Positions 4,217 through 45,202 of a stretch of 64,000 nucleotides of DNA are shown piece by piece. The first letter of the stretch is position 1. Each line of letters begins with the position of its first letter. The stretch is from Dacryopinax spathularia (lineage: Eukaryota; Basidiomycota; Dacrymycetes; Dacrymycetales; Dacrymycetaceae). The notes beneath the pieces were generated by a model. The model was not told the origin of the DNA. It made no database searches and saw nothing but the letters and a program-made list of their open reading frames with translations. The DNA is taken from assembly GCA_037974965.1 (NCBI GenBank), contig JBBPFI010000009.1, forward strand, positions 930,001-994,000, given 5' to 3'. The position numbers and the translations under genes were made by a program.

Positions 4217-5385
4217 ATGGCCACCGCCGCCTTCGCGCACGAAAAAGCCGTCGCAATCAGCGCAGTCCTCCGCGCCTGCCGGCTCACATCCTCCGTCTTC
4301 CAGAAACTCGTCACTTCCGAAACCGTAACGAAGAACGACAAGTCGCCCGTAACGGTCGCGGACTACGCTGCTCAAGCGGTGATCAACTCCATTCTTTCTC
4401 GGTCTTTTCCAGGGGACCCGATTGTTGGGGAGGAGGATGCGAAGGTTCTGAGGAGTGCGGGGGATGAGAAGGCGAGGCAGTTGAGGGAACATGTGGTCCA
4501 GTTGGCTAATGACGCTTTGTCCTCCTCTCCAACGGGGGAGGAGAAAGCAGAGTGGGGCATCGGCAGCCCACGCACGGCAGACGAGCTGCTGGACGCGATC
4601 GATAGGGGAATGTACGAAGGAGGCCGAAAGGGCAGGATGTGGGCGCTCGACCCGATAGACGGCACGAAAGGTTTCCTTCGAGGAGGCCAGTACGCGGTCT
4701 GCTTGGCGTTGATTGTCGATTCTGTTGTTCAGTTGGGAGTGATGGGATGCCCGAACTTGCCGGTCGAGCCGGGCAAGCCGGAGGGGGAGAAAGGATGCTT
4801 GTTTGTTGCTGTTAGAGGGCAGGGTGCTGCTCAGGTGCGTCTGCCCTTCTTACACACCACCCTTTCATCACCCTCTTCTACTATCGGAAGGAGACCGAAG
4901 AATGCTAATACGCACTACAGCGTTCCCTAACCAACCCAACCCTCCACCCCCTTCACATCCCCCCCGTCCCCCCCTCCTCCTACCAACTGCTCGAATCCCT
5001 CGAGTCCGCCCACTCTTCCCACTCCTTCTCCGCCTCCTTCTCGCACCACCTCAACATCACCACTCCCCCAATCCGGATGGACAGCCAAGCGAAATACTGT
5101 TCCCTCGCGCGGGGCGAAGGCTCCATCTACCTGCGCATGCCTACGGGTGTCGGGTACAGGGAGAAGATCTGGGATCATGCGAGTGGGAGTCTGCTGGTCG
5201 AGGAGGCTGGTGGGGCGGTGAGTGATTCGCGGGGACTGCCGTTGGATTTCGGCCTGGGGAGGACGCTGGGCGAGAATTATGGGGTTGTGGCGGCGGGGAA
5301 GGAGGTGCATCCGAGGGTTATTGAGGCTATTAGGGCTGTTAAGGAGCAGGAGGAGAAAGAGAAAGAGAAGCAGAAGAGCGAGTGA
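4217..5385 (+). CDS. 3'(2'),5'-bisphosphate nucleotidase (Hal2/Met22 type)
   Basis: The enzyme hydrolyses 3'-phosphoadenosine 5'-phosphate to AMP. It detoxifies the by-product of sulfate assimilation and is the lithium/sodium-sensitive target behind HAL2 salt tolerance. Two exons, 4217-4834 and 4921-5385, join in phase 0 (donor GTGCGT, acceptor CTACAG, branch TGCTAAT) to give 360 residues, close to yeast Hal2 (357). The metal-binding inositol-phosphatase motifs are present: VADYAAQ near residue 50, GEED near 72, and WALDPIDGTKGF near 145 with the DPIDGT metal ligands. The second exon has WDHASGSLLVEEAGG, the usual substrate-pocket motif. The last 15 residues are a Lys/Glu tail. Confidence 0.92.
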
Positions 5386-5682
5386 GTTCAGTACATATGA
5401 GCGGGGACTTGAAAGGGATACGGTCGTGAAGGTATAGAATTGGATGGTAGTGGATGCTGTATAACCATGATTAGGGAAATCAAGAACTCAAATGTATGCG
5501 TCCCTCTTCGGCCGCGAAAGATACCGTCCATCAGCCTCTTAGAGACAAGACTGCTTCCCGTTAGCTTTCTTCGCTGCCCGAGTATCTTGTCCCTTCCCCC
5601 GCATATACATTCAAACATATCCATTGCAAGCTACCTTACTCGCATACATCCACCCTAGCATCTCCCAGACCCCCCCACCACC

Positions 5683-7085
5683 CTAGGTGAACACCAGCGT
5701 CCCATTCGTACACACAAATCCAAGCGCACTCGAATTGACCGGCGAATTATCACATATCACCGACGCGGGCGCTCCGCTCTCAGGCCGGATATGGATGTTG
5801 GAGAGTGTGAAGTTCTGGCATGCGTTCGGGTTGCAGTGGAAGATTATTGCTTGGGTTCCGGTGGAGAGGGGTTCGTTGTACCAGCAGGGGTCTGGTGCGA
5901 GTGGGTCAGCGGGTGCTGTAGAGCAGATCGAGAGGAGGATGAGAGAGGAAGGGAGAGGCGAGGACTTACCAGAAACACAGCTCCCATCCCCCTGATGATA
6001 CGTATTAACCGTCCCCCACACCCCGTCATACGTAAACTCCTGCATGACCACACTCGCATTATCCACCCTCGCCCCACCCGGCGAATTCTGGTCCACATAG
6101 CTCTGCGTGATATACAGCGGAAAGCTCACGTTCTGCATCCCGATCCGGCGGTACGTGACGTTCCTCGCCAGCCCTGTCCCTCCGACCCAGGATTTAAAAC
6201 GGGCGCCGTAGAGCGTGTTCTGGAAGAAGACGTCTTCCACTAACACGTCACTGACGTTTGCGGGCTTGGTTGGGTCCTTGCCGAGAGAACCGATCGAGGC
6301 GCCGTGCGATGCGTACCCGACGAACGCGCGCCGGAAAGTGACGTTCCGCGTCCCTACGCTTCCCTGGCCGATAGCGAGCGCGTCGTCGCCGTTCATGATG
6401 ACTGAATCCTCGATGAGCAGGTTACTGCCGGTGGCGTCGAACCCGTCTGTATTGAATGGGAAGGAACCGGACCAGGAACGGGCGTCGATGAGCGTGTTAC
6501 GGGCGTGGACGTTGTTCGCTGAGGCGAGGGAGATCGTCCAGGCTATGGGTTGGTAGAACTTGAGGTTCGTTAACCAACCATCTGTGACCGCAAAACCGAG
6601 CAGATGCGGGCGTGCTATTTGGTTGCCGGCGTCCCACCATTGCTGGCCTGTACGTGGGCAGCACGCCGTTTAGTACTGTCGCTCATCTGAGGGCTAGAGA
6701 GGGAAGAGGACATACCATGTGAATTGATCCAACCCCATTTCTCCTCCTCGCTCCCAACAAGACTCACGTTCCTCCCCGTAAAGTACAGCCAAAACCCGCT
6801 CGAGCTCGCATTCACCGCCGCTTGGACAGCAGTCACGTTCGTAGGCAGGGAAAGGTTGCCAAGGATTGATACGGTTATGTCCGAGTCGGGAACGACGAGC
6901 GGGGTGAGGAGGCTGTACGTCGTGTTGGGGGCGAAAGTTATGTTCCTAGAAGGGCAGGAGGCGAGGGTGGTATGGAAGGAGGGGGTGTCGTCGGAGTTGG
7001 GGGTGTGGGGGACGGTGCAGTTTTGTGCAAATGCGCCGGGTAAGAAGAACAACAGTACGGTCAAGAGCCAGGCAAGGCGGGCCAT
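5683..7085 (-). CDS. Secreted GH28 polygalacturonase-like glycoside hydrolase
   Basis: Predicted pectin-degrading glycosidase of family GH28. Three exons (7085-6716, 6647-5970, 5891-5683) splice in frame to 418 residues. The N-terminus is a typical signal peptide ending at about AFAQ. Four GH28 active-site motifs are readable: NTDGFD, GDD, the SHG of YASHGASIGSLGK, and RFKSW (usually RIK). Many N-x-S/T sequons fit a glycosylated extracellular enzyme. The residue after GDD is Ala rather than the Cys common in endo-polygalacturonases, and the sequence looks closer to exo-acting members, though endo or exo cannot be settled by eye. A 297-bp gap, tail to tail, separates it from the nucleotidase gene. 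Confidence 0.88.
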
Positions 7086-17685: not shown

Positions 17686-18379
17686 CTATAACGCCAGCCC
17701 TGCGCCGCATAGTATGCTCACACCCGCCACCGCTACGCCTGCCCACGCCGGGCTGAGACCAGCAAATGTAGCTGCCAGCATCCGCCGCGCATCGTTCGCG
17801 GCAGCGGCGAAGGTCGTGCCGAAGCCTGATGTCGGGTTCGGACTGCCTGAAATTGTTGCGGTCGGCTTGGTAGAATCTGTCGTTGGGACGGTACCGTTGC
17901 TTGGTTGAATGGAGAACCGCTGCGAGGTCGAGTATGAGATACCGTGTTGAGCATCAAGGAACATCAGGAAGTAGTCGTCTCCGTTTGGTACACCGTCAAG
18001 CTCAATGTTCAGGCCGTTGAGTTGCACGGGCACTACAAGGACAGACAGGTTAGCAGACATGGCGAAGTTGGCGATAAATGGGGTTACCATTGCGAGCCAC
18101 AAAAAGAAGGCCATCTGTCGACAGACGCGCCAGCTCAACGTCGAATATCCCGTCCGGCACTGCTTCTACCGCCGCAGTCCACTGCACCAGGTTCGTCGCG
18201 TTGTTGCTCCACACTGAGCCCTTCGTTGGTGTCGTGATGATGAAGTATGCTATGAAACGCCGTCAGCATCAAGCTCACTGCGCAATAACAACGCGGAGCT
18301 ACTCACTTGGGATGTTCTGTGCGAGCGTGAAGGGAAGGAGGGCGAGTGATAGAAGTGGGAATGATAATGACGGTCGCAT
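17686..18379 (-). CDS. GPI-anchored Kre9/Knh-like secreted cell-wall protein
   Basis: Three exons (18379-18307, 18249-18088, 18032-17686) give 193 residues. The protein has an N-terminal signal peptide (SLALLPFTLAQ), then a domain of the Ser-Thr-rich GPI-anchored family related to Kre9/Knh1: YFIITTPTKGSVWSNN, VQWTAAVEAVPDG, VELARLS and DDYFLMFLDAQHG. A Ser/Thr-rich spacer follows, and a hydrophobic C-terminal end (VAVAGVSILCGAGLAL) fits a GPI-attachment signal. The Kre9 group takes part in beta-1,6-glucan assembly, but this short protein may be only structurally related. The last intron has a clear TGCTAAC branch site. Confidence 0.82.
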
Positions 18380-19078: not shown

Positions 19079-19885
19079 CTATTCGAAATCCAGCTCATCA
19101 ACCTCAGCGCGCAAATCGAGCATGTCGTCCTCGTCCCATTCGGCCCTCGTGTCGAGCATATCGTCTTCATCCCATCCGCGCTGCTCAACATCGATGTCTT
19201 CCAGTTCGCGGTACTCCAAGTCAAACGGCTCCATCTCCCGCTTTCGGTGCGGGATTTCTTCGCTCAGACCAGGACCCGCCCTGAATTCCGCCGTCTTTTG
19301 GGGGTCGCCCGTCTTAACGGCCATGGGTCTGTGTGGCCTCACTTTGTTCTGCGCCCAGTGTTGCGCTGTCGCAAGTTTCTCCAATCCAGCCGTCTTGATC
19401 TTCGACGTAACTTTCTTGATCTGCTTGGCCGGCCTGGTAACCTGCTTCTTGATCGCCTTCAAGATGTCGCGGGCTTCAAGCAAGAGTTCATCGTCGGCTA
19501 GAGTGGTATCAAGGCTACGAGCGTGCTGTGGGGGGCTGGGGGTACGGCTAGGCGTGATAAGCGGAACCCTTTGGCCATTCTTCACGCGACGGGCCTTCGG
19601 AAGAGCTCCCTTCTTCCGGACACGGTTCTTGACCTCCTGGACAAACGTGCCAACCGCACCGAGGACTTTGGCCTTCGCTTTGTTGGTGAATCGGGTGATG
19701 CCACCGCGTTCTTCGAGATAATCACCACTGGCAAGCAGCATCTCGTCGAAGTCTCGGAGGTAGAGGTCGTTGTCCTCGGCCTGGAGATCGCGAATCTGGT
19801 TTCCTACCGACTGGCGAACTTCCAACGGGAGAGCGATCGTCGTTGCCACCAGGGCAACAAGAATGTAAGAGAGCTTGAAGAGCAT
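19079..19885 (-). CDS. Secreted cysteine-free protein SPA (new family, member A)
   Basis: Intronless ORF of 268 residues with no match I recognise. MLFKLSYILVALVATTIA is a signal peptide, followed by LPLEVRQ. A Lys/Arg-rich middle region (about residues 65-120 and 145-190) has stretches such as VKNRVRKKG and KQVTRPAKQIKKV. A switch to an acidic C-terminus begins at MEPFDLEYRELE. The C-terminus holds a perfect-spacing repeat, WDEDDMLDTRAE then WDEDDMLDLRAE. LEAR/LEER-type motifs recur (YLEERGG, LLLEARD). There is no cysteine. It is paralogous to SPB: shared MLFK-SYIL, KAKVL, VQE-KNRVR, DDEL-LEAR and EPF-LE-RELE. HRKR at residue about 205 is a candidate Kex2 site. Predicted extracellular; function unknown. 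Confidence 0.8.
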   Translation of the reverse strand: MLFKLSYILVALVATTIALPLEVRQSVGNQIRDLQAEDNDLYLRDFDEMLLASGDYLEERGGITRFTNKAKAKVLGAVGTFVQEVKNRVRKKGALPKARRVKNGQRVPLITPSRTPSPPQHARSLDTTLADDELLLEARDILKAIKKQVTRPAKQIKKVTSKIKTAGLEKLATAQHWAQNKVRPHRPMAVKTGDPQKTAEFRAGPGLSEEIPHRKREMEPFDLEYRELEDIDVEQRGWDEDDMLDTRAEWDEDDMLDLRAEVDELDFE

Positions 19886-19929
19886 GGTCGACGAATCGGT
19901 TTAGGAATGAATGTCGATCGATGTAGGAG

Positions 19930-20022
19930 GGCCTGGCCAGCAGGGAAAGATGGTGTTGGACTGGGGGTGTGGGGGTGAGTCCGGCTCTGTGGGGATTCAA
20001 TAGTTGACGCTGACGTTTTATA
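19930..20022 (-). promoter_or_regulatory. SPA promoter and leader boxes
   Basis: On the gene strand: TATAAAA (20022-20016), then CAGAGCCGGACTCAC (19989-19975) about 33 bases after the TATA start, then CCTGCTGGCCAGGCC (19944-19930), 45-60 bases before the ATG. The same three elements, in the same order and similar spacing, precede SPB, SPC and SPD. SPA has the most diverged boxes. Confidence 0.65.
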
Positions 20023-20719
20023 CGCATGGCAGAACAGTACGACCTGGCGAGTCGGTCGGGGATGTGGCCGACGGACGTTAGCTGTGTTGAAAGTCGTTCC
20101 CACGATGCTAGCTCACTCACCTGCATGTCTTTCGTGCGCTGTTCGCTGCATCAAAGCTGTACGCTGGAGCACTCTCAGACGTGCATGGCCCTAAGACATT
20201 TCCGCCCGCGAGCAGCGCCTAAATGACTGGACCATCAGGAACGTTGGATCCCGCAACAATCATAGACCGGGAAACTCCACTATTCTTGGCGATATGCGCC
20301 AGCAAAGACGGCCACTCTCTCCTTAGAAGGCAGCCACGTTTTCATTTATCTGTGGCTCACGCACAGTTGTCAGCATCTGAGACCGATGTCGCTGATGGAG
20401 GGACCCTGGAGGTCGGCCGGTCTTCTGGTCGCCGGTGCCCTGGCAACAATAACGTCTCCGTTTCACCACAAAGCTTGCGAAATGACTCCCGGGACAAGAG
20501 GTGCGTCTAAACTGTCCACCTAGTGGCGCATCTTAGCGGTGATTGTCTCGTTTCATTGCTGATCGTCATGACGTTTCACAATTGAACAACCTTCCAGGTT
20601 GGGATTTGTGGCTGTGCTGTGAACTTCGCTGAGCATCTGATGGACATGACGGTGCTTCGCAAGTCAAGGTGGATCGAGCTGAGATTTCTATCCAGAAGCG
20701 ACTACCGCACATGATGCGA

Positions 20720-21433
20720 CTACAGCACAGAGGTGAATGTCACGTCATCACGTACGTATAGGGAGTCATCCTCATCTCGGTCTCGTTCTAGTTCACGAAA
20801 CTCCAGTTCGAAAGGCTCGACCTCCCGATGGAGTATCCCGCCCTGCGCCTTCTGCTTCGCAAGCTCCGTCTTGCTCATCGGCTTGATGATGTCGACCGAT
20901 TTGGAAGGATTGGCCTTATTCCTCGCGAGTCGGACAACAGCACGCAATTTGTCCATGGCGGAGTTCTTCTTCTGCTTGGCAATCTGCTTGGCTGTCGTCC
21001 AGGAGCCGCGAGCTTCGAGATACAGTTCATCGTCGAGGAAATCCAGGCCGCGAGAATGTCGACGAGGTGGACTAGCGTCATTGTGCGGCATCAAGCCTCC
21101 TGACGCTTGCCACGACGCACGAGACTGCTTCGTGCGAGTGGCCCTGCGGACAGACTTGGAAGGTCGCACGCGATTCTTGCTTTCTTGTACAGCGACACCG
21201 AGCATGCTGAGAACCTTCGCTTTCACTTTCTTGGCAAATCGCTTGAAATCGGCTCGAGCTTCCAGAGGGAGGCCGTCGGCGACCAGAATATCTTCCAGAT
21301 GGCGTCGCTGAAGATGGATCTCGTCCGCTTGAACATCTTTGATTTGCCTTGCAATCGGTCGCCGAGCTTCCAGCGGAACAGCGACAGCCGTAGCCACCAG
21401 GGCGAAGAGGATGTAAGAAGATTTGAAGAGCAT
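20720..21433 (-). CDS. Secreted cysteine-free protein SPB (new family, member B)
   Basis: Intronless ORF, 237 residues from the MLFK start that aligns with its paralogs; an in-frame upstream ATG would add 11 residues. The signal peptide MLFKSSYILFALVATAVAV is followed by PLEARRP. The rest alternates basic and acidic regions: FKRFAKKVKAKVL, NRVRPSKSVRRATRTK, DDELYLEARG, then EVEPFELEFRELERDRDEDD near the C-terminus. No cysteine. It aligns with SPA along most of its length but is far less similar than the promoter boxes are. LEAR occurs three times. Predicted secreted; function unknown. Confidence 0.8.
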   Translation of the reverse strand: MLFKSSYILFALVATAVAVPLEARRPIARQIKDVQADEIHLQRRHLEDILVADGLPLEARADFKRFAKKVKAKVLSMLGVAVQESKNRVRPSKSVRRATRTKQSRASWQASGGLMPHNDASPPRRHSRGLDFLDDELYLEARGSWTTAKQIAKQKKNSAMDKLRAVVRLARNKANPSKSVDIIKPMSKTELAKQKAQGGILHREVEPFELEFRELERDRDEDDSLYVRDDVTFTSVL

Positions 21434-21481
21434 GACGAGTGGATTTCGAAGAGTTGGAAGCCTCAATAAGTGAAGTGCAAG

Positions 21482-21576
21482 AGCCTGACCGGCAGGTTCT
21501 GAAGTGGAGTGTGGAAAGGAGTGAGGGGAGTGTCCGGCACTGTGTAGAAGCTCAAGAGAATCTGCATGGCTTTATA
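21482..21576 (-). promoter_or_regulatory. SPB promoter and leader boxes
   Basis: On the gene strand: TATAAAG (21576-21570), CAGTGCCGGACACTC (21542-21528), then CCTGCCGGTCAGGCT (21496-21482), with the ATG at 21433. The middle box is identical, 15 of 15, to that of SPD, which lies 11 kb away and in opposite orientation. Confidence 0.7.
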
Positions 21577-21739
21577 GGCTGGATGGCCCTCGAGCAAGTA
21601 TGGGTTGAGGGCCACAGTATCTCCGCTCTTATCGTGGGTATGACCCACGACCCTGGACATGGGTGTGAGAACCCCACTGAAGCTGAACAGGGTTATTTCC
21701 GAACTGTCCAGGGTCTCTCATCTCTCATCTCTTATTAGT

Positions 21740-21771
21740 GCCGCGGCTATGGAAGCCTCCCGCGGACAGCT
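21740..21771 (+). repeat. Left terminal inverted repeat
   Basis: Outer end of the AT-rich insertion; pairs with the complement of 23031-23060. Confidence 0.75.
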
Positions 21772-22441
21772 CGACTCCGGGGTCCATTCAGGGTCCAAAA
21801 GCCGCGGGACCCGGTGAGCAGCTGGCCAAAGAGGCAGAAGGCCCAAAGGGCTGCAATATGACATATGCCTTAGTAACGACTTAAATAACCCTTACACGGC
21901 CACTAATAAGAAACAAAAGTGAAAAATAAAAATAGCTATTTAAGTTTTGTTTCTGCACGAGTTGCTTAGGACCTAAACATGCAATTAAACTATATAATAC
22001 TTTAGCCAAGTACAAATTGACAACATAATAGCTAGATTAAACATGAATAATCATCTGGATGACTTCAAAGAGTTGCACCAATAACCACCTCTAATAAAAC
22101 ATCGTTGCGGAATATGATCATTTCTGATCACAGAAAAACTCTTGAGCTTGAGGCTGCAAAACTACTAAAGTAAATTACGAGGTGTATATTGGGAAATGTC
22201 ACTTAACGCACACAACTCTCCTTAATAAGCTAAACCTCTCAGTATTTTACCTTGAATTTAATACTATGATAGACACTACCTGTCAGGATTTGCCGCATTC
22301 ACAAGCCAATTTGACTGATTCAACCACTCCAAAGGCACTTTGGATGCACTTGTACACAATCTGGGACATTGGTGCAATTATGCAAGTCTCAAGAGACCTG
22401 CCCTGTAGGTAAGCATAACTGTACAGTTGCAATTCTGTGCT

Positions 22442-22831
22442 TCAGATAGACTTCCCACCATCCATATATGTGCTCAGCAGATTCATAGATATTGACCTTA
22501 GTGCTAATCTATTAGGATTCTTTACAATACTTGTAGAGTTGAACTGGGCATTATGATCCAAAATGCCTACAAATGTCTCCAAACTCTTGCTACTCTTAAT
22601 ATCAACAGTTTTGGCGGGAAATATTTTTTGTACTCCACTCATGTTGATATTCTCACTACTCAAACCTGTTTCAAATGCTTCATCACTCTCTTCAGCCAAT
22701 TCACAGATAGCTCTTATGTCTAGTGTTATGTGCCCTGACAGCAGCTTAGCAAAACTTAACTTTTGTTTTAAAAACAAGATTAAAGTATCTTGTGGGAAAA
22801 CAAACCTAAAAGCAAGTTTCATAAAAAGCAA
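22442..22831 (-). other. Unidentified ORF inside the AT-rich insertion
   Basis: A 129-codon open frame within the AT-rich element. It has no recognisable domain and its codon use is unlike the neighbouring genes. It may be chance in AT-rich DNA or the remnant of an element protein. Confidence 0.2.
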
Positions 22832-23030
22832 ACAAAATAAAATAAAATTACATGTTTTCCTGATGCTAAGTGGCCATGCAACAATTTCCGACTTATCTGT
22901 TATTTTAACAAGACCAAGGGTTTTAAGCCGAACCCTTGGTTACAGGGGTCCTGCACCCTAATAGTGGGGGTCGAGCCCGGTCATGTCCAGCGTTGACCGA
23001 GCTCGGTAGCCCTTTGCGGACAGCTCAGGG

Positions 23031-23060
23031 AGCTGTCCGCGGAAGGCTTCCATACGCGGC
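23031..23060 (-). repeat. Right terminal inverted repeat
   Basis: Pairs with 21740-21771. Its inner half also forms a hairpin with GCGGACAGCT just inside the element. Confidence 0.75.
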
Positions 23061-23788
23061 TGTGTTGAAACCAGCAGGGGTTCGGCTGACCGACCCCACA
23101 CGATAAGCACTGGAGCCATTAATGCTCTATGCTGGAGTTTCTACAGAAGAATATTGTCCGTCTACCCTTTCTGTCCGGCACTCGGATGAACAGCTTGATC
23201 GAACCCGTATCAGGACGAGCGTTAAACCCCCGTTTGGGCCAGCCATCACTTTAATAAAGCTTGCAACATCTGAGTATGTAATCTCATCGGCTCTCGCACA
23301 GCTCCTGGTCCGCGGTCAGCTGATATTGATCCGTTCAGAGACAAAGGCTCCTGGGCTGCAGAGCCGACGCGTGCATAGAAGGGAGAGCCACTGCTACAAA
23401 TACATTGGGCGCGACGTCGATCAATGATCATCGAACTTCGGCACCGGCTCGCAACTGCTCTGCGGACTCAGTCCGTCGGTCGCTCGTCCATGTTTCGGAT
23501 ATGCCCATATCATTGCGGGTTATATACAAGATGACCCTATAATATCGGCCAAAAATATGAACAATTGAGCGCCGTCGCGATAGAACAGAAGACTACGCCA
23601 ACAGCACCCTGCCAGTCTCGTCATCCATCATGTCACCAGCAAGAAGGTGAAGGGCTCTCATTGATCTTTCCAGCACGTATAATCAACATTAGCTACACTA
23701 ATGTCACCAAACGCCTTGCAGTCCAATCGCCTCTCAGGGGGCAGCACCTTCACCCGGGCTGGCGCACTCGCCGCACTGACAACTCCCT

Positions 23789-24643
23789 TCAGAAATCTCC
23801 CTCGAAGTTGCGCAGACTGAGCAGCTCTGCCTGAAGGCTACGACGCTTCATCCCCAGATCAAAGTCGTCATCGTCGTCGGTGAAGGCTCGTCTGTTCAGC
23901 GGCTTGCTCTTGCTGTGTAGATCGCTTTTGCTGAGTGGTGGCGGAAGATTCTGATGAGCCGCGTTCGCTGCGGGTTTCGGGCTGGGTGGCTTAGGAGCGT
24001 TGGATGTCTGCTCATCCACGTCAGTATTTACGTCTCGAGAGAGCAGTTAGAAGTACATACCGGCGGATGGGGAGAGATGTCGAAAGTGGGCGAGCTCGAT
24101 TTCTTGTCCCCGCTGCGGCCTTCTAGAACTTCGTTGTCGTATTCGTCAAGAAGAGAACGAGAGTCGAGATCAAACGCCGGATCGTCACCACCCAACGATC
24201 GCCTGTTCAGGGGCTTGCTCTTCTTGTGAAGGTCGTTTTTGCTGAGTGGGGGTGGAAGATTCTGGTGAGCTGGAGCAGCGTTCGCCGGCGGTTTCGGGCT
24301 GGGCGGCTTGGGGTTACTGGACGTCTTCTCACGAGCATCAAGATTTAGGTTCTTGGATGGTCTGAAGTTGTTCACATACCGGTGGATGAGGGGTGATGTT
24401 GAACCCGGGCGAGCCAGACTTCTTGTTCGACTCGCCAGTACGACCTTCAAGAATATAGTCGGCCCACTCGTCAAAAGCACGACCCGCTACCGCATATTCG
24501 CCAGCGTCGCCAAATGATCGGACATCCACCTCATATGCGACCTCACCAAGCGATCTTGCCTTCGTGCTTTCGATAGGAAGAGCTTGACTGAGGGCGATCA
24601 TGGCGACCAGGATAACGGGAGCATAGTGAGCCTTGAATAACAT
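23789..24643 (-). CDS. Secreted cysteine-free protein SPC with duplicated exon module
   Basis: Three exons (24643-24380, 24324-24061, 24007-23789), all joined in phase 0, give 248 residues. Exons 1 and 2 are both exactly 264 nt. The signal peptide is MLFKAHYAPVILVAMIALSQ, followed by ALPIES. Exons 1 and 2 share similar ends (ILEGRTG...PHPP and VLEGRSG...PHPP), and exons 2 and 3 share similar starts: TSS/TSN, KPPSPKP, HQNLPPPLSK, then SKPLNRR. So one exon-intron-exon unit has been duplicated in tandem. Each module ends in a dibasic RR followed by an acidic stretch, and KRR occurs again in exon 3. No cysteine. Predicted secreted and possibly proteolytically processed; function unknown. Confidence 0.82.
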
Positions 24644-24692
24644 GTTGATAGGAAAGTCTTAATGAAAGCGATAGGGAGCGAGTGGGTGTATG

Positions 24693-24809
24693 GTCCTGGC
24701 CGGCAGGAAGTGGCAGTTGCGAAAGTGGGAGAGGCGTGAAGTAGGAGGGATGCTCGAGTGTCCAGCACTACAATGGGGACTCCAAGTTCCTCTGGCATCC
24801 CATTTTATA
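24693..24809 (-). promoter_or_regulatory. SPC promoter and leader boxes
   Basis: On the gene strand: TATAAAA (24809-24803), TAGTGCTGGACACTC (24770-24756), then CCTGCCGGCCAGGAC (24707-24693), with the ATG at 24643. Same order and spacing as in the other three family members. Confidence 0.7.
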
Positions 24810-26509
24810 CCCTACGACGAGCTTCCTGTCCTGTTGAACTTGAATAAGATTAGGATAAGCTGAGAAGAGGGTGCGGTGCAAGCCGGACGCACCTATGCTT
24901 CTCGCCGTCCTCGCTCCTGACGATCGCCAGCTTTCCCACCGAAAACCCCAATTGACCTCGTGGAACAAGCGGGAGAAATGAATGCCTTCGTTCCAGACAC
25001 TGCTGCCAAACATTTTCCACTACCAGAGACCAGTCACCATCCGCTGCAGTTGGCAGAGCCTGTCCAGGAGACTGCCACACCAACAGGCATCGGGCAGCTT
25101 TTTCCGTGCGATGAAGCGAAGACTCCGGAGTAACGTCAAAGCTTATCCACAACACCGAGCAACCTCCGATGCCTCTCCTCCCGCTGCCGGTAGCTGTACC
25201 TCTGCCCGTGCCTATCAGTTCGCAAGAGAAGAAAATTAGCTTCTGAGAGAATACAGACCCTTGATTGCCAGAGGGTGAAACACGTCTTTGAGGAACTAAG
25301 GAGCCTAATTCTTCTTAGAGATTCGTGCATCGCCTTCTAAGAGAAGGGTCATTGTGGTGCTTCCCGTGTGAGAAACCTTCTCAGCTTACATAGACAGAAT
25401 CGGCTCATGTAAGGCCATCGCTGAGCGAGGATCGCGGTTGTTACATACGCTGATGGGCTTACATGAGGCGGTCAGCGCGAAGCCTCGTGTCAATACGATC
25501 AGGTAGTTAGTCTGGGAGGGCATCAGCGGAGTGGGATGCTTGCCGGTCCAGGGTGGAGCCCGCACACAATTGGGGCCTGCACGGAAGGCGAATCCGGCCA
25601 CACCCAAAGGTGAAGACTTGGTTCGGCTGCACCGTAAACCTGCCTGTGAAGCATGTGCCAGCAAGCCGTGTTCTTGGTCGAAGGGAGGGGGGAACAGTCG
25701 GATTGAGCGGATAGAACAGAGTCGCGCGGCCCGTGCGGCAGCACCGCCTAGTGACCGCGATCCTGGAAGCGCACACCGTCTGAGTCCTTTGGGAGGGTAG
25801 CGACCTCACTCTCGACGGCGAAACAAGAGCGACGAGACGACTAGCTTGCAACAGCCTGGAAAAGGGAAGAGGTCGGTCCCGTTTCCTCCTGAGCTTGAAA
25901 AGCCTGGAAGACCGGACCGGACGACACCCGAGCAGAGGTTGCACTGTACTGTACAGTAGCTCGGAGCAGATTGCACTATCTCCCGGCGTACTGCTCTTCA
26001 CGGAAAGGACGAAGATCGCTGCTTTCTGGCGCAGGGTTGCTCAGGCTTAAGCTCCAGTGAGTCAAGATGCCTTTCGAAGAAGGTGACGGTTTTCCGTAGT
26101 TTGCCAGGTCGATAACGCTGAGACTCGGCCGACACTACTAGAAAAGGGGTGAAGGTGGGTGCAGGTGCGTAGATCAATATGGCCACTGTTGGGAATTAAT
26201 TGCGGAAGCGCGAGCCTCACGTCTTCATGTCTTGACCAGGTTCACGTCGGATGCGTCCCCTTACAGTCGTCCGAGGGCAGGCCAGGCATACGTCGTACGA
26301 TCTTTGCGTTCGCCTTGCTGCAAGTGGGATCCGTACGTTCGGTGGCAGCTAATCGTCCTTCAACAGACTTTCCATCAACCAAAAGCATCTAGCTAGATAT
26401 TAACAAGTACTTTCAACCAAAGATACAGTTTCACCCCTTGACTTCACCGGTTCGTCCTCCTCCTCTTCTTCATCATCATCTTTGCGTCCCCACTCATTAA
26501 GGGGAGTCT
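24810..26509. other. 1.7-kb region without a supported gene
   Basis: Lies between SPC and the carbonic anhydrase 3' end. ORFs on both strands (longest about 164 codons, 25507-26001 minus) lack domains and splice logic. I looked for a fifth copy of the secreted family or its promoter boxes and did not see one. Confidence 0.35.
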
Positions 26510-27302
26510 CTATTCCAGCGGTCCAACACTGCACCCCATATCCCTCACCAACCCCGTGCCGACCTCATACACCCATCCATGCACCCACACCTTCCTCCCT
26601 TCCTTCCACGCGCGCTGGATGATATCCGTATGCACGACATGGCGGACTTGCTGCTTGACGCTCGCTTCGAGTAGTTTGGGGAGGGCGTCGGCTTCGGACT
26701 GCGAGGAGAGGCCGAGGGACTGGGCGAGCTGCATGAGGGGGGTGAGCCAGCGGATCAGAGGCGCGCTGGGCGAGGGGGAGGGGGTCGTGTTGGAGAGCGC
26801 GTAGGAGGCGGCGACGCCTCCGCAGGAGGTGTGCCCGCAGACGATGACTGGTGGGCATACGCGTCAGCGTTCGCAGATGTGGGCAGTATGGAACGAGGAC
26901 GTACCGTGCTCGACGCCGAGGTTCTCGACCGCATAGGTCAGCACAGACAAAGCAGAGTCATCATTCGGATGGAACTGGCTATGATAGTCTCAGCATACAG
27001 CCCTCGGAAACTCACATATACGAAGAGACTCACTTGGCAATATTCCTATGCACGAATATCTCCCCCGGCTTAGCGGCAAGCTTGACCGTCTCCGGCACCC
27101 GACTGTCCGAGCATCCAATCCAGAGGATCTTGGGCGCTTGACCTTTTGCACTGCGCTCGAAGAAGTCGGGTTCGAGGCTCTTTACGTCCGCGGCCCATTT
27201 TGCGTTCTGGGCGAAGAGTCGGGCGAGGAGGGGGAAGGAGTCGGCTTTGACTGGTCCTGTGGCTTGCGCGGGCGGGACGGCGTTGCCGTTTGTTGTTGAC
27301 AT
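26510..27302 (-). CDS. Beta-class carbonic anhydrase
   Basis: Zinc enzyme interconverting CO2 and bicarbonate (the fungal Nce103/Can group), supplying bicarbonate for carboxylations. Exons 27302-27034, 26978-26905 and 26847-26510 give 226 residues from the MSTTNG start. The zinc and active-site motifs are complete: CSDSRV (Cys, Asp, Arg), HRNIANQ, then CGHTSCGG (His and Cys). SVLTYAVENLGVEH precedes the latter. The frame stays open 93 codons upstream to an ATG at 27581, and that extension is rich in Arg, Ser and Pro without acidic residues. A mitochondrial or alternative isoform is therefore possible. I take the shorter start because its context is good and it aligns with typical family length. 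Confidence 0.92.
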
Positions 27303-27581
27303 TGTGCGGTTTTGCAGAGAGAGGGGAAGATGTATGCGTGGGGATGCGGCGACGTGGACGAGGGAGGAAGAGGGAGGAGAAAGGGGGGTGAACGAGGAGG
27401 AGAGGGAGCGAGCGATTATATGCTGATTGGGCGGAAGCGGGGACGGAGACGGAGATTGGTTTGGGTGGGGAAAGAAGCGCGGGGTCGGAGAACGAAAGCG
27501 CGACTGCGCCAACGGGCGAACAGCGATCCGAGCGAGTGGGAACGTGATGGGCAGAGCTGGGTGCGGCGATAGCGGTCCCAC

Positions 27582-28344
27582 CGAATGGGCGCTGTTATCG
27601 CGTGATAGGAGTCGTGCTGGGCGTCGTGGTGAGGTAAAAATGGGTTGATGGGTTGCCTAAGCGGCGGGGAGATACGGAAGACGGTTAGGGGGAGACGGTT
27701 GATGGGAGATAAAGGTGGGCAAGGTGATGGTGATAGGAGGATACGATGAGGAGGCGGAAGATGTATGCTGTCTGACTCGAGAGGGGGAGGGGACGGAGCA
27801 ACGGAACTACCCTGACTGACGAGGCTTTCAATGGGGAAGGGGAGGACGATGTCTCTCCTTTTGCGCGCGTCTATATCGTCTTATGCGCGCGTCGCGATCA
27901 AAGAATACCCAACAAGAAGTCTATTCTCCCCTAAACTGAATACGAATATTCCAGACCATGTCTTTTCTTTCTGTCCAATCCAAAATCTTGCTCGCGGGCG
28001 AGGTGTGGGAACGGCCTGCCCAACGAACGTTGATTCGTCCCCAACTGATTTTGGCTTGATTGACGACATCAGGAACCAACTGGACCGCGGGAAGAGAAGG
28101 ATTTCAGGGTAAGGGAAATACGTCATCGTCGTTCGGACTGTGAAAGGAAGGGCCCGGGCCGCGGCCACAAAGGGTCCTCCCACAGAAGGCAGGTTCGGAA
28201 ATGAACACGGTGCCACTCGCCAGCTTGATCACTAGCCAGTCGATAGCCCTGACCGGTGCTGCTTACCTCTTTCTGCACTAGATGACAACGAGCTAGAACT
28301 TGAAAGCTGTAGAGCCTGATCCCAAGCAGATCGGCACGGCCACG
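27582..28344. promoter_or_regulatory. Divergent promoter region between carbonic anhydrase and RecQ genes
   Basis: Purine-rich plus strand near the carbonic anhydrase side and no supported gene. A possible 5' leader for either gene. Confidence 0.3.
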
Positions 28345-31408
<3,064 letters not shown>

Positions 31409-32451
31409 CAACGAGGCGTGTTTTGTGAGTTTTCCCTGTACTGGACTTGAGTGGTTTTCTGTCTGGGACCTGAGTCTATGATAGCCCTGCGATACACCCT
31501 GCCAACTCGTGTTTACCGTAACCCCTCGCGATGCAATGTGTGTGTTTTTGCACAAAAATTGCTCGGTTCACAGTTCCGCCGGACCGCCAGACAGAGGATA
31601 ATTCCCTATCGATCACCCGTGCGGTACCGCGATCTCCCGAGAAAGACGAACCTGTGGCCATGCCCGCAAGCTCGGCTCGAAAGAAGCCAGTGTGTACGAT
31701 CCCGGCCCCAATCCCTAATTGCACGGACATAGCATGCAGTTTTCTCCGCGGAACATGATGAGCACATGTAACTTATCAGCGCTTCCGTAAGCATTGGTTT
31801 ACGGCACGTTGTCAGGCGATGATAGGGCCGGAACTGATGTACGGGCGGCTTATTTCGTGGACACGTGACTCGCCAGCTTAGGTAACGTGTGCCGGTTGTG
31901 GATCCGCTGAATTGTCGAAGACGGGTTGTCAGCCGTTGACACGGGCTGTTTCACCTTCCTTGAACAACAAGACTTCTGGCGTCCTTCGTACAAGCATTGC
32001 AAGAGCTCTCTTACGTCCGATCAGTCCGAGAGTATGTAGCAGGTCGTGGCTTGAAACATGCGAAATCGCGGCCACGCGCAGGTTGGCACGATACTGAAAA
32101 GGAGAAAACACGTCCAAAACGCCGGACTGAGCGTCCGTTTAATGGAACCCTTAAGTCACCAGAAACAATCGAGGGAAATATTGGTCAACTGAACGAAATG
32201 TTCCATGCGAGAGCGGTGCATGTAGGAGAACTGCAGGCCTTTTCCGCGAGCACTGATACAAATTTTGCAGATAACTTGCTATGCTGTGGCTAGCAACCTG
32301 AGACTGACAGTCATCGTTTTTCAATATGTCCAAAACTTGGACCTTCGCAACCGGGACAGGGCCTATCAGAATCATCTCAAGAGTATTCATTTCCACCGGC
32401 ACTCATGCACAAACGCCAAGAGACGGACGCCAACCTGGAGACATAAAAAGC
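31409..32451. other. Intergenic region between RecQ and SPD
   Basis: About 1 kb with no supported gene; small ORFs only. The SPD promoter starts at its right end. Confidence 0.35.
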
Positions 32452-32553
32452 GTGCACTCGACCACTCTCGCTCTTCACTGCAGTGCCGGACACTCAGACA
32501 CGCTCCCGTAATCTTTCCCTCCATCCACTCACATATCGCCTGCCGGCCAGAAC
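32452..32553 (+). promoter_or_regulatory. SPD promoter and leader boxes
   Basis: TATA-like CATAAAAAG (32452-32460), CAGTGCCGGACACTC (32481-32495), then CCTGCCGGCCAGAAC (32539-32553), with the ATG at 32608. The middle box is identical to SPB's, and the last shares 13 of 15 bases with SPC's. Confidence 0.7.
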
Positions 32554-32607
32554 CACTCTTTCACACGTCATCACTAGCTCACTTCTCATTGCCACTCTCC
32601 CAAGAAG

Positions 32608-33244
32608 ATGCTGTTCGAGCCGCAATACGTTCCTCTTTTGCTCGCCGCCACCGCCGCCCTCAGCAGCGCGCTCCCCATCGAAAGCCGCTCCGTTGGTGAC
32701 GAGGGCTACGACATCACTGCTCGATCCATTGGGGAGCAGGACAACTCAGCTCTCGCAGCTCGTGGCGGCAGAAGGATAGTCGCCTCCAGGCCGTTCCATC
32801 TGAACGTTGCTACCATGGGTTTCGTGCGTACCCGCTTACTGTTGCTCAATGTGTTCAACTATTGATCTAGCTTGCAACGTGCTACAAAGAAGCGGTCGAT
32901 CGACGATGACAAGGCCTACGATGTTGGGAGCCGTTCTGTACCCCATGAAGAGGACTACGACCTCGCACACCGGTCTCAACCGCCCAAGCCTCCTGTATGT
33001 CAAAGCACCTCTAGGTATACTCTAATAGCTGACTTCATCACGTTCCCAGAAGACATCAGTGGCGCAGAACATCGAGCCCCCGGTCAGCAAGGACGAGCTG
33101 ATCAAGAAGTCGAAGCCCTCGAATCGCGGTCGTTCATTGTATGAGTACGAAGGCGAGTACGACGACATGCAGCTGCGTGGCCTCGCGCCAGAGGCACAAG
33201 TCCTCCGGCTCCGTGGGCTAGGGATGGAGATGGATCATGATTAG
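32608..33244 (+). CDS. Secreted cysteine-free protein SPD (new family, member D)
   Basis: Three exons (32608-32823, 32890-32994, 33053-33244), all phase 0, give 170 residues. The signal peptide MLFEPQYVPLLLAATAALSS is followed by ALPIES, as in SPC. Exon 2 starts with the dibasic KRS and ends in KPP just before a GTATGT donor. Exon 3 starts TSVAQNIEPPVSKDELIKK then SKPSNRGRS, matching the SPC module (TS...QNLPPPLSK.DLH.KSKPLNRR) and following an intron at the same position. Acidic, Tyr-rich stretches follow (YEYEGEYDD). No cysteine. This is the only family member on the plus strand, and it is separated from SPC by carbonic anhydrase and RecQ. Function unknown. Confidence 0.8.
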
Positions 33245-44842: not shown

Positions 44843-45202
44843 TGGTTGGCGTTGTGGGTGGGATGACGAGCGGGATCGGCGGGACGGGAGAAGACGGGCT
44901 CAATCCGCTCTCCGTGCCTTCCGCACAGCCCCTAAGCTGGACCCTTTCCCCTCCCGCCGTCGTGCCGTCGTGCCAAAGGGCAGAGCGCGTCGCCGCGTTC
45001 CCCCCTCCCCGCCGTACACGACTGGTTGGCGTTGTGGGTGGGATGACGAGCGGGATCGGCGGGACGGGAGAAGACGGGCTCAATCCGCTCTCCGTGCCTT
45101 CCGCACAGCCCCTAAGCTGGACCCTTTCCCCTCCCGCCGTCGTGCCGTCGTGCCAAAGGGCAGAGCGCGTCGCCGCGTTCCCCCCTCCCCGCCGTACACG
45201 AC
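44843..45202. repeat. Perfect 180-bp tandem duplication in a divergent promoter
   Basis: Positions 44843-45022 and 45023-45202 are identical, with exact tandem spacing of 180 bp. The duplicated block fills most of the 514-bp gap between the IF1 start (44728) and the dynactin p62 start (45243). No substitutions were seen between the copies. Confidence 0.95.

Follow-up and report, generated by a model that had tools for sequence, protein, structure and literature searches.

A four-gene cluster in Dacryopinax spathularia may encode kexin-processed secreted peptide precursors with common leader elements

A 64,000-nucleotide stretch of the Dacryopinax spathularia genome (hereafter the window; contig C9, positions 930001-994000, of an assembly of 29.2 Mb in 24 contigs) carries a cluster of four genes, SPA, SPB, SPC and SPD, whose products have a signal-peptide-like start and no cysteine after it. 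We regard it as an evenly balanced proposition that these genes encode co-regulated, kexin-processed precursors of secreted peptides that arose by local duplication of one ancestral gene, and that they represent a low-repeat variant of the fungal precursors known as KEPs. Secretion and kexin cleavage are predicted here from the protein sequences: the signal peptide would be removed, and a kexin-type protease of the secretory pathway would then cut at repeated monobasic [LIV]-x-x-R sites (often L-E-x-R) that end the acidic stretches and also at RR or KR, which mostly end the basic stretches, parting acidic spacers from basic products. We infer that it is the basic stretches, not the spacers, that become the products, and that the four genes are controlled together. 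SPA and SPB would each yield a peptide of 37-40 residues with a helix tendency plus a second, longer basic stretch, SPC would yield proline-rich peptides in two near-copies, and the products of SPD would be proline-rich, one of them short.

An earlier sequence-only reading had described four cysteine-free secreted proteins in a 14-kb region, and all four were present there (Table 1), starting with MLFK in SPA, SPB and SPC and with MLFE in SPD. The LPLE or LPIE near which it had the signal peptide end was found after the hydrophobic stretch in SPA (LPLE) and in SPC and SPD (LPIE), and SPB reads VPLE. Signal peptides were assessed by eye, and in all four proteins a hydrophobic stretch and a small-x-Ala pattern precede [LV]P. 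The spliced proteins contain no cysteine after the signal peptide, as had been stated, the cysteines of the unspliced SPC and SPD frames falling inside introns. As a background, we took 45 open frames with a length of 220 residues or more, the longest that do not overlap, from the window outside the cluster and from nine other loci (the L036 precursor described below is included); 2 of these 45, which are frames and not whole genes, lack cysteine, so that this property is uncommon, not unique. The 3' ends of the SPC and SPD introns were picked by us among the listed splice options. Alternative 3' ends exist for SPC intron 1 (52 nt) and SPD introns 1 and 2 (66 and 55 nt), by which a few residues would be gained or lost, and SPD intron 1 is the least certain choice of the set. 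An intron follows HPP in each of the two internal repeats of SPC, and one follows PPKPP in SPD.

The motifs LEAR, LEER and LEGR, which the sequence-only reading had reported as recurring in all four proteins, occur (counted as LE[AEGV]R) three times in SPA, three times in SPB and twice in SPC, a total of 8 compared with 0.14 in shuffled sequences; SPD has none and carries LAAR and LAHR in their place. Over the four mature proteins, [LIV]xxR was found 32 times, compared with 13.7 +-3.2 in composition shuffles, and [LIV][DE]xR 16 times, compared with 2.3; these counts are not independent because the four proteins are partly homologous. Leucine occupies P4 in 22 of the 32 sites. The background frames showed an observed-to-expected ratio for [LIV]xxR of 0.90, and SPA (z 2.9), SPC (z 5.3) and SPD (z 3.5) exceeded all 45 of them, as did SPA, SPB and SPC for L[DE]xR. 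When the 10 LxxR sites of SPA were compared with SPB, the P1 arginine was kept at 8, P4 at 7, P3 at 5, and P2 and P1' at 2 each, with 5 of the 13 other arginines of SPA kept in SPB. The published expanded Kex2 motif is LxxR, with leucine or an aliphatic residue at P4 and arginine at P1 (Outram 2021, PMC8528282). The recurring LExR fits this motif, and therefore points to processed precursors, a known kind of molecule. In addition, single arginines appear to be the cutting sites for some of the products obtained when KEPs of Coprinopsis cinerea were expressed in Pichia (PMC9769878). The genome contains one place that matches P_proprotein, the kexin P domain (E 3e-22), a count that is a lower bound.

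The four proteins can be divided into eight basic stretches with net charges of +5 to +13 and 11 acidic spacers or C-termini with net charges of -1 to -21, with linkers of 0 and +1 in SPA and SPB. All eight basic stretches begin after LxxR, and six end at RR or KR. The alternation of acidic and basic blocks, claimed earlier for all four proteins, was reached by 0 of 2000 shuffles for SPA and 6 of 2000 for SPB; SPC and SPD are taken up below. The first basic stretches of SPA and SPB are 51% identical. The two repeat copies of SPC, aligned with part of the spacer included, are identical at 53 of 71 residues, and dN/dS (the ratio of replacement to silent change) over the 71 codons is 0.17, silent change thus exceeding replacement change. 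Basic stretch 1 of SPA was modeled by AlphaFold as a lone helix (pLDDT 75), as many such peptides would be.

The pairing of the proteins proposed by the sequence-only reading was confirmed. SPA and SPB are 45% identical (E 1.9e-34; 36% overall when gaps count as differences), with a dN/dS of 0.26 and synonymous sites near saturation, and SPC matches SPD in exon 1 (E 8e-6) and exon 3 (E 0.015), while SPC and SPD hardly align with SPA (24-26%). A genome search with SPA (E 0.001) returned itself and SPB alone, and no credible relative outside the cluster was seen with SPA and SPC as queries (SPB and SPD were not used) in these single-sequence, exon-by-exon searches, which distant relatives could escape. 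Two weak SPC matches, at C1:1688784 and C2:2176798 (E 0.04 and 2.1), look on inspection like chance frames. No Pfam or NCBIfam model matched any of the four proteins at E 10, PDB sequences gave nothing meaningful for SPA, SPB or SPC (SPD was not run), and a prokaryote genome scan with SPA gave no relative. Among the literature listed, as judged from titles and the openings of abstracts, we recognised no description of this family, and we make no claim of its being unpublished. The earlier remark that no described family of this make-up was known therefore agrees with the profile searches, and is qualified by the fit of LExR to the Kex2 motif. Local duplication, also proposed there, is borne out by the absence of credible relatives for the SPA and SPC queries outside the cluster and by two leader elements common to all four genes.

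When the stretches before the four start codons were aligned, two conserved blocks stood out amid otherwise diverged DNA, E1 (AGTGCYGGACACT, and AGAGCCGGACTCA in SPA) and E2 (CCTGCYGGYCAGR). Positions relative to the start codon are -137 to -166 for a TATA-like box, -103 to -126 for E1 and -59 to -69 for E2. E1 starts 34-40 nt past the TATA-like box and E2 lies further 3', and both are therefore probably transcribed. The gapped pattern GGACWCNCN{22,52}CTGCYGGYCAG, which was built from the four leaders themselves, has exactly 4 matches in 29.2 Mb, one per SP gene, compared with 1 for a reversed control. Its restriction to the four SP genes genome-wide points to shared ancestry or regulation, and it is the pair of E1 and E2, not the single elements, that links SPA and SPB with SPC and SPD, whose proteins barely align. 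E1 and E2 have a palindrome-like core in common, which the E1 of SPA preserves through a change in both arms. This core, [GC][AT]GCYGG[ACT]C[AT][CG], occurs twice, 44-62 nt apart, before each of the four genes, and no other same-strand pair 30-80 nt apart was found anywhere in the window. E2 with one mismatch occurs 4 times in the window, compared with 1.2 in shuffles (5 of 100 reach 4). At a separate locus (L017, C1:1694000-1698500, around 1700, minus strand), a CTGCCGGCCAG core lies within an open frame that looks helicase-like by eye, not in a leader.

A further candidate precursor of similar style was found on the same contig, 0.64 Mb from the cluster and unlinked to it. We examined 15 ten-kb stretches (ten haphazard, two beside this locus, two beside the window and one near the window), and the precursor, designated L036 and lying in one of the first five of them, was first noticed for its density of R[SA][LIVF], its leader being read afterwards; a motif scan of the remaining 14 stretches gave no other credible precursor, a few low-scoring frames having been dropped by eye. 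L036 contains five repeats, nearly identical and about 101-104 residues long. In each of them, acidic spacers (SLDDSDDVDFEAR, SLDDDVEDGLWAR) that carry RS[LF] and xxAR sites come first, and a longer stretch rich in Ala and Gln follows, with KKQR or RKQR at its end. It is enriched in [LIVFM]xxR (z 3.0), dibasic sites (z 2.7) and R[SA][LIVF] (z 8.7). Its leader has a strict E2 (CCTGCCGGTCAGG) at -113, TATATA at -215 and no strict E1. The net charge of its repeat units is close to zero (-2 to +3), which counts against kinship with the SPs. None of the Pfam matches of L036 reaches its curated cut-off (best E 2e-4), and they seem to reflect composition. We considered whether the acidic spacers of SPC and SPD have a common origin with one L036 spacer, and rejected this: in six comparisons, the alignment score was reached by 41-1471 of 3000 shuffles, and, as these alignments are not significant, we claim likeness of style alone. 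The make-up described by the sequence-only reading is therefore not limited to the 14-kb cluster. We suggest, tentatively and as the less probable case, that CCTGCYGGYCAGR is the mark of a regulon in this fungus, through which genes for secreted peptide precursors are switched on or off together, their proteins being otherwise unrelated in sequence and of one style, namely an acidic spacer, a single-arginine cut and a longer product.

Table 1. Coordinates of the genes, predicted segments and leader elements of the cluster, of the element inserted between SPB and SPC, and of the L036 precursor (positions are those of the window, except for L036)
Feature	Position	Strand	Description
SPA coding sequence	19079-19885	-	single exon, 268 aa; open frame
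SPA basic stretch 1	19586-19705	-	residues 61-100, net +11, LEER60 to RR100
SPA basic stretch 2	19238-19468	-	residues 140-216, net +13, LEAR139 to KR216
SPA E2	19932-19944	-	CCTGCTGGCCAGG
SPA E1	19976-19988	-	AGAGCCGGACTCA
SPA TATA box	20017-20022	-	TATAAA
SPB coding sequence	20720-21433	-	single exon, 237 aa
SPB basic stretch 1	21143-21253	-	residues 61-97, net +10, LEAR60 to RR97
SPB basic stretch 2	20825-21007	-	residues 143-203, net +12, LEAR142 to HR203 (right border not dibasic)
SPB E2	21484-21496	-	CCTGCCGGTCAGG
SPB E1	21529-21541	-	AGTGCCGGACACT
SPB TATA box	21571-21576	-	TATAAA
A-T-rich 1.3-kb element	21748-23054		25-nt inverted terminal repeats (96%); between SPB and SPC
SPC gene	23789-24643	-	exons 24380-24643, 24061-24327, 23789-24007; 249 aa
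SPC proline-rich basic copy 1	24199-24439	-	residues 69-131, net +9, LEGR68 to RR131, spans intron 1
SPC proline-rich basic copy 2	23888-24114	-	residues 160-217, net +6, LEGR159 to RR217, spans intron 2
SPC E2	24695-24707	-	CCTGCCGGCCAGG
SPC E1	24757-24769	-	AGTGCTGGACACT
SPC TATA box	24804-24809	-	TATAAA
SPD TATA-like box	32442-32448	+	CATAAAA
SPD E1	32482-32494	+	AGTGCCGGACACT
SPD E2	32539-32551	+	CCTGCCGGCCAGA
SPD gene	32608-33244	+	exons 32608-32823, 32890-32994, 33050-33244; 171 aa
SPD short basic stretch	32764-32895	+	residues 53-74, net +5, LAAR52 to KR74, spans uncertain intron 1
SPD basic proline-containing stretch	32974-33133	+	residues 101-135, net +5, LAHR100 to RGR135, spans intron 2
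L036 precursor	C9:300001-310000, 5259-7058	+	599 residues, cysteine-free, signal-like start

Several observations weigh against the proposal that the SPs are multi-site precursors. The segment borders were set by us after inspection of the sequence, and charge alternation is not significant in SPC (158 of 2000 shuffles reach it) or SPD (360 of 2000). Dibasic KR and RR sites are at chance overall (13 compared with 12.6) and singly have z values of -1.2 in SPA, 0.0 in SPB, 0.0 in SPD and 1.9 in SPC. SPB alone shows no excess of [LIV]xxR (z 1.0; 7 of 45 background frames equal it), L[DE]xR is absent from SPD, and [LIV]xxR is not enriched in L036 (7 compared with 4.9, z 1.0). P2 is occupied by Lys or Arg in only 3 of the 32 sites and, in 5, by a residue from among the five alternatives that rank highest for Kex2 at this position (Arg, Thr, Pro, Glu, Ile), and Asp, reportedly unfavourable at P3, occurs there in 4 (two in SPA, two in SPC). 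Many LxxR sites lie inside acidic stretches, and for the 29 sites without a preceding K or R the next 10 residues have a mean charge of -1.3. Helical amphipathicity was above shuffles in one of four basic stretches (SPA stretch 2, 4 of 2000; the others, 240-633 of 2000), and because of this we dropped, and do not claim, a reading of these stretches as amphipathic antimicrobial peptides; synthetic peptides of C. cinerea KEPs had no antibacterial activity (PMC9769878). It is possible, at clearly less than even chances, that the SPs are instead secreted proteins with one N-terminal pro-segment that kexin removes by cutting after LPLExR or LPIESR, the rest staying whole, charged, perhaps disordered, and extracellular or wall-associated, and that a make-up of acidic and basic blocks produces the remaining LxxR sites incidentally. 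Effectors with one pro-domain have been described (PMC8528282), all four proteins have [LV]P[LI]E with an arginine soon after the hydrophobic stretch (the PIESTKAR of SPC is not LxxR), the P2 residues at internal sites are mostly not the preferred ones, and the AlphaFold model of whole SPA, with two sequences as input, has no confident fold (pLDDT 43.7, pTM 0.18). Against a single cut stand the internal LxxR sites, in excess of shuffles and, in SPA, SPC and SPD, of every background frame, the better keeping of P4 and P1 than of P2 and P1' between SPA and SPB, and the two near-copies of one basic stretch in SPC, each with LEGR before it and RR after it. That the four proteins are merely low-complexity charged open frames, alike by composition, is very improbable. 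Charged residues make up a large share of each of the four (28-37%), and none has a match to a known domain, but the A/B identity and its dN/dS, the still lower dN/dS of the SPC repeats, the introns at like places in the SPC repeats and SPD, and a leader pattern found at these four genes alone in the genome speak strongly against such a chance origin.

The leader elements themselves allow more than one role. They may be palindrome-like DNA sites of a dimeric regulator that defines a regulon of precursor genes, a possibility that we hold to be less likely than not, and that concerns control only and can apply with or without processing of the proteins. The paired core before all four genes and nowhere else in the window argues for this, as does the E2 at -113 of the unlinked L036, which is the sole strict E2 in 183,314 bases outside the window (23 loci, partly non-random), where 0.083 would be expected. 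However, about 13 strict E2 sites would be expected by chance genome-wide (an expectation, not a count), activator sites are not usually located 3' of a TATA-like box, and only a single unlinked gene was found, without a strict E1. E1 alone is not over-represented, either in the genome with at most two mismatches (604 compared with 596 for the reversed control) or in the window with two mismatches (4 compared with 3.9 in shuffles), and of its four exact 14-mer copies the one at C3:205181, considered as a new family member, was rejected as no related gene was seen there. Alternatively, E1 and E2 may work at the RNA level, as hairpins whose CNGGN loop is recognised by a SAM protein of the Vts1/Smaug type in post-transcriptional control, which we consider unlikely. 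The CNGGN(0-1) hairpin is a known Vts1 element (PMC9893680, PMC2573929, PMC4053848), the criterion for Smaug and Vts1 elements together being a CNGGN(0-4) loop, and the probable transcription of both elements would suit this role. All eight elements read C-Y-G-G-N between arms able to pair: 92.9% of 28 cells pair, the covariation score is 0.571 compared with 0.143 (reached by 0 of 500 shuffles), and three of the four pairs change on both sides (reached by 52 of 500). A palindromic DNA site accounts for the same covariation, however, and whole leaders did not surpass shuffles in folding (z -0.19, 0.98, 1.15 and 1.08). The local-fold probability is 0.00-0.02 for E1 in all four genes and at most 0.06 in six of the eight elements, and is substantial only in E2 of SPB (0.67) and SPC (0.78). 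Tandem CNGGN hairpins also occur elsewhere, with 2 further pairs in the window and 2 in 83 kb of background. The SAM_2 and SAM_1 profiles found the same 3 genome places each, none of them Vts1-like, and which by eye we take to be Ste11-, Boi- and Ste50-like. Yeast Vts1 as genome query gave no match at E 10, and a consensus query matched the Ste11-like place alone (E 0.33), so that no Vts1-like SAM domain was found by these exon-by-exon searches, from which a domain split by an intron could escape. We hold a dimeric DNA site to be at least as likely as an RNA hairpin.

Compared with known systems, the SPs resemble KEPs in working, which is not membership. The survey pipeline of Le Marquer 2019 calls for at least 3 repeats and KR, KK or RR sites (PMC6339444), and many KEP types are restricted to few taxa (PMC6339444; Umemura 2020, PMC7329392). 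Points of likeness to KEPs as described in these papers are a start that by eye resembles a signal peptide, the lack of a known domain and, in SPC, repeats with RR between them, RR131 and RR217 ending the two copies. Unlike KEPs, SPC has two repeats where three are required (L036 has five), near-identical repeats were not seen in SPA, SPB or SPD, and it is the monobasic LxxR that is enriched, KR and RR being at chance over the four proteins. Kex2-processed pro-domain (K2PP) effectors have KR, RR or LxxR after a disordered segment in the first half of the protein, with a folded effector domain behind it (PMC8528282). In the SPs, too, LxxR as a candidate cleavage motif follows an N-terminal segment, the sites of this type in the first half being LEVR24 in SPA, LEAR24 in SPB, VDVR42 in SPC and IESR27 in SPD; they differ in that LxxR recurs through the whole protein and that no folded mature domain is predicted, as judged from the SPA model. 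By description, Rep1-type precursors of Ustilago maydis are similar in that one secreted precursor is cut into several peptides (PMC8528282). The basic stretches of SPA and SPB, unlike those peptides, are by eye not repeats of one another. Candidalysin is helical and basic, and its precursor Ece1 is cut at Kex2 sites of the dibasic kind, a point of difference from the SPs. Also by description, Candida Ece1 resembles the SPs as a precursor of several non-identical peptides, one of them active (PMC7329392).

The open reading frames around the cluster match common families, namely an inositol phosphatase, GH28 and an alpha/beta hydrolase, with a carbonic anhydrase, helicase and RecQ zinc-binding domains, a Ras-family GTPase, a photolyase and dynactin p62 also nearby. 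The 1.3-kb element between SPB and SPC has 32 genome matches (itself included) spread over nine contigs, and is therefore probably a dispersed transposable element inserted into the cluster. The frame at 17686-18138 (minus strand) encodes a short protein that looks secreted and has a Ser/Thr-rich part as well as a hydrophobic tail; by eye it is a candidate for a GPI anchor, and it gave no Pfam match at E 0.01. A 180-bp unit is present in perfect tandem duplication at 44843-45202.

Among the processed peptides described from fungi are surface repellents, signals and effectors (PMC6339444, PMC7329392, PMC8528282). That the basic peptides of the SPs act outside the cell, on surfaces or on neighbouring organisms, is a guess and a poorly supported one. 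If the SPs are indeed peptide precursors, the locus points to a kind that has few repeats and monobasic LxxR sites, which a survey for at least 3 repeats and dibasic sites, such as that in PMC6339444, passes over, and it offers two handles for finding more of them, the site grammar and the leader element. If CCTGCYGGYCAGR does mark a regulon of such genes, it could serve to find peptide precursors missed by repeat-based surveys, and, if the leader element is the signal of that regulon, when and why the peptides are made becomes directly testable.

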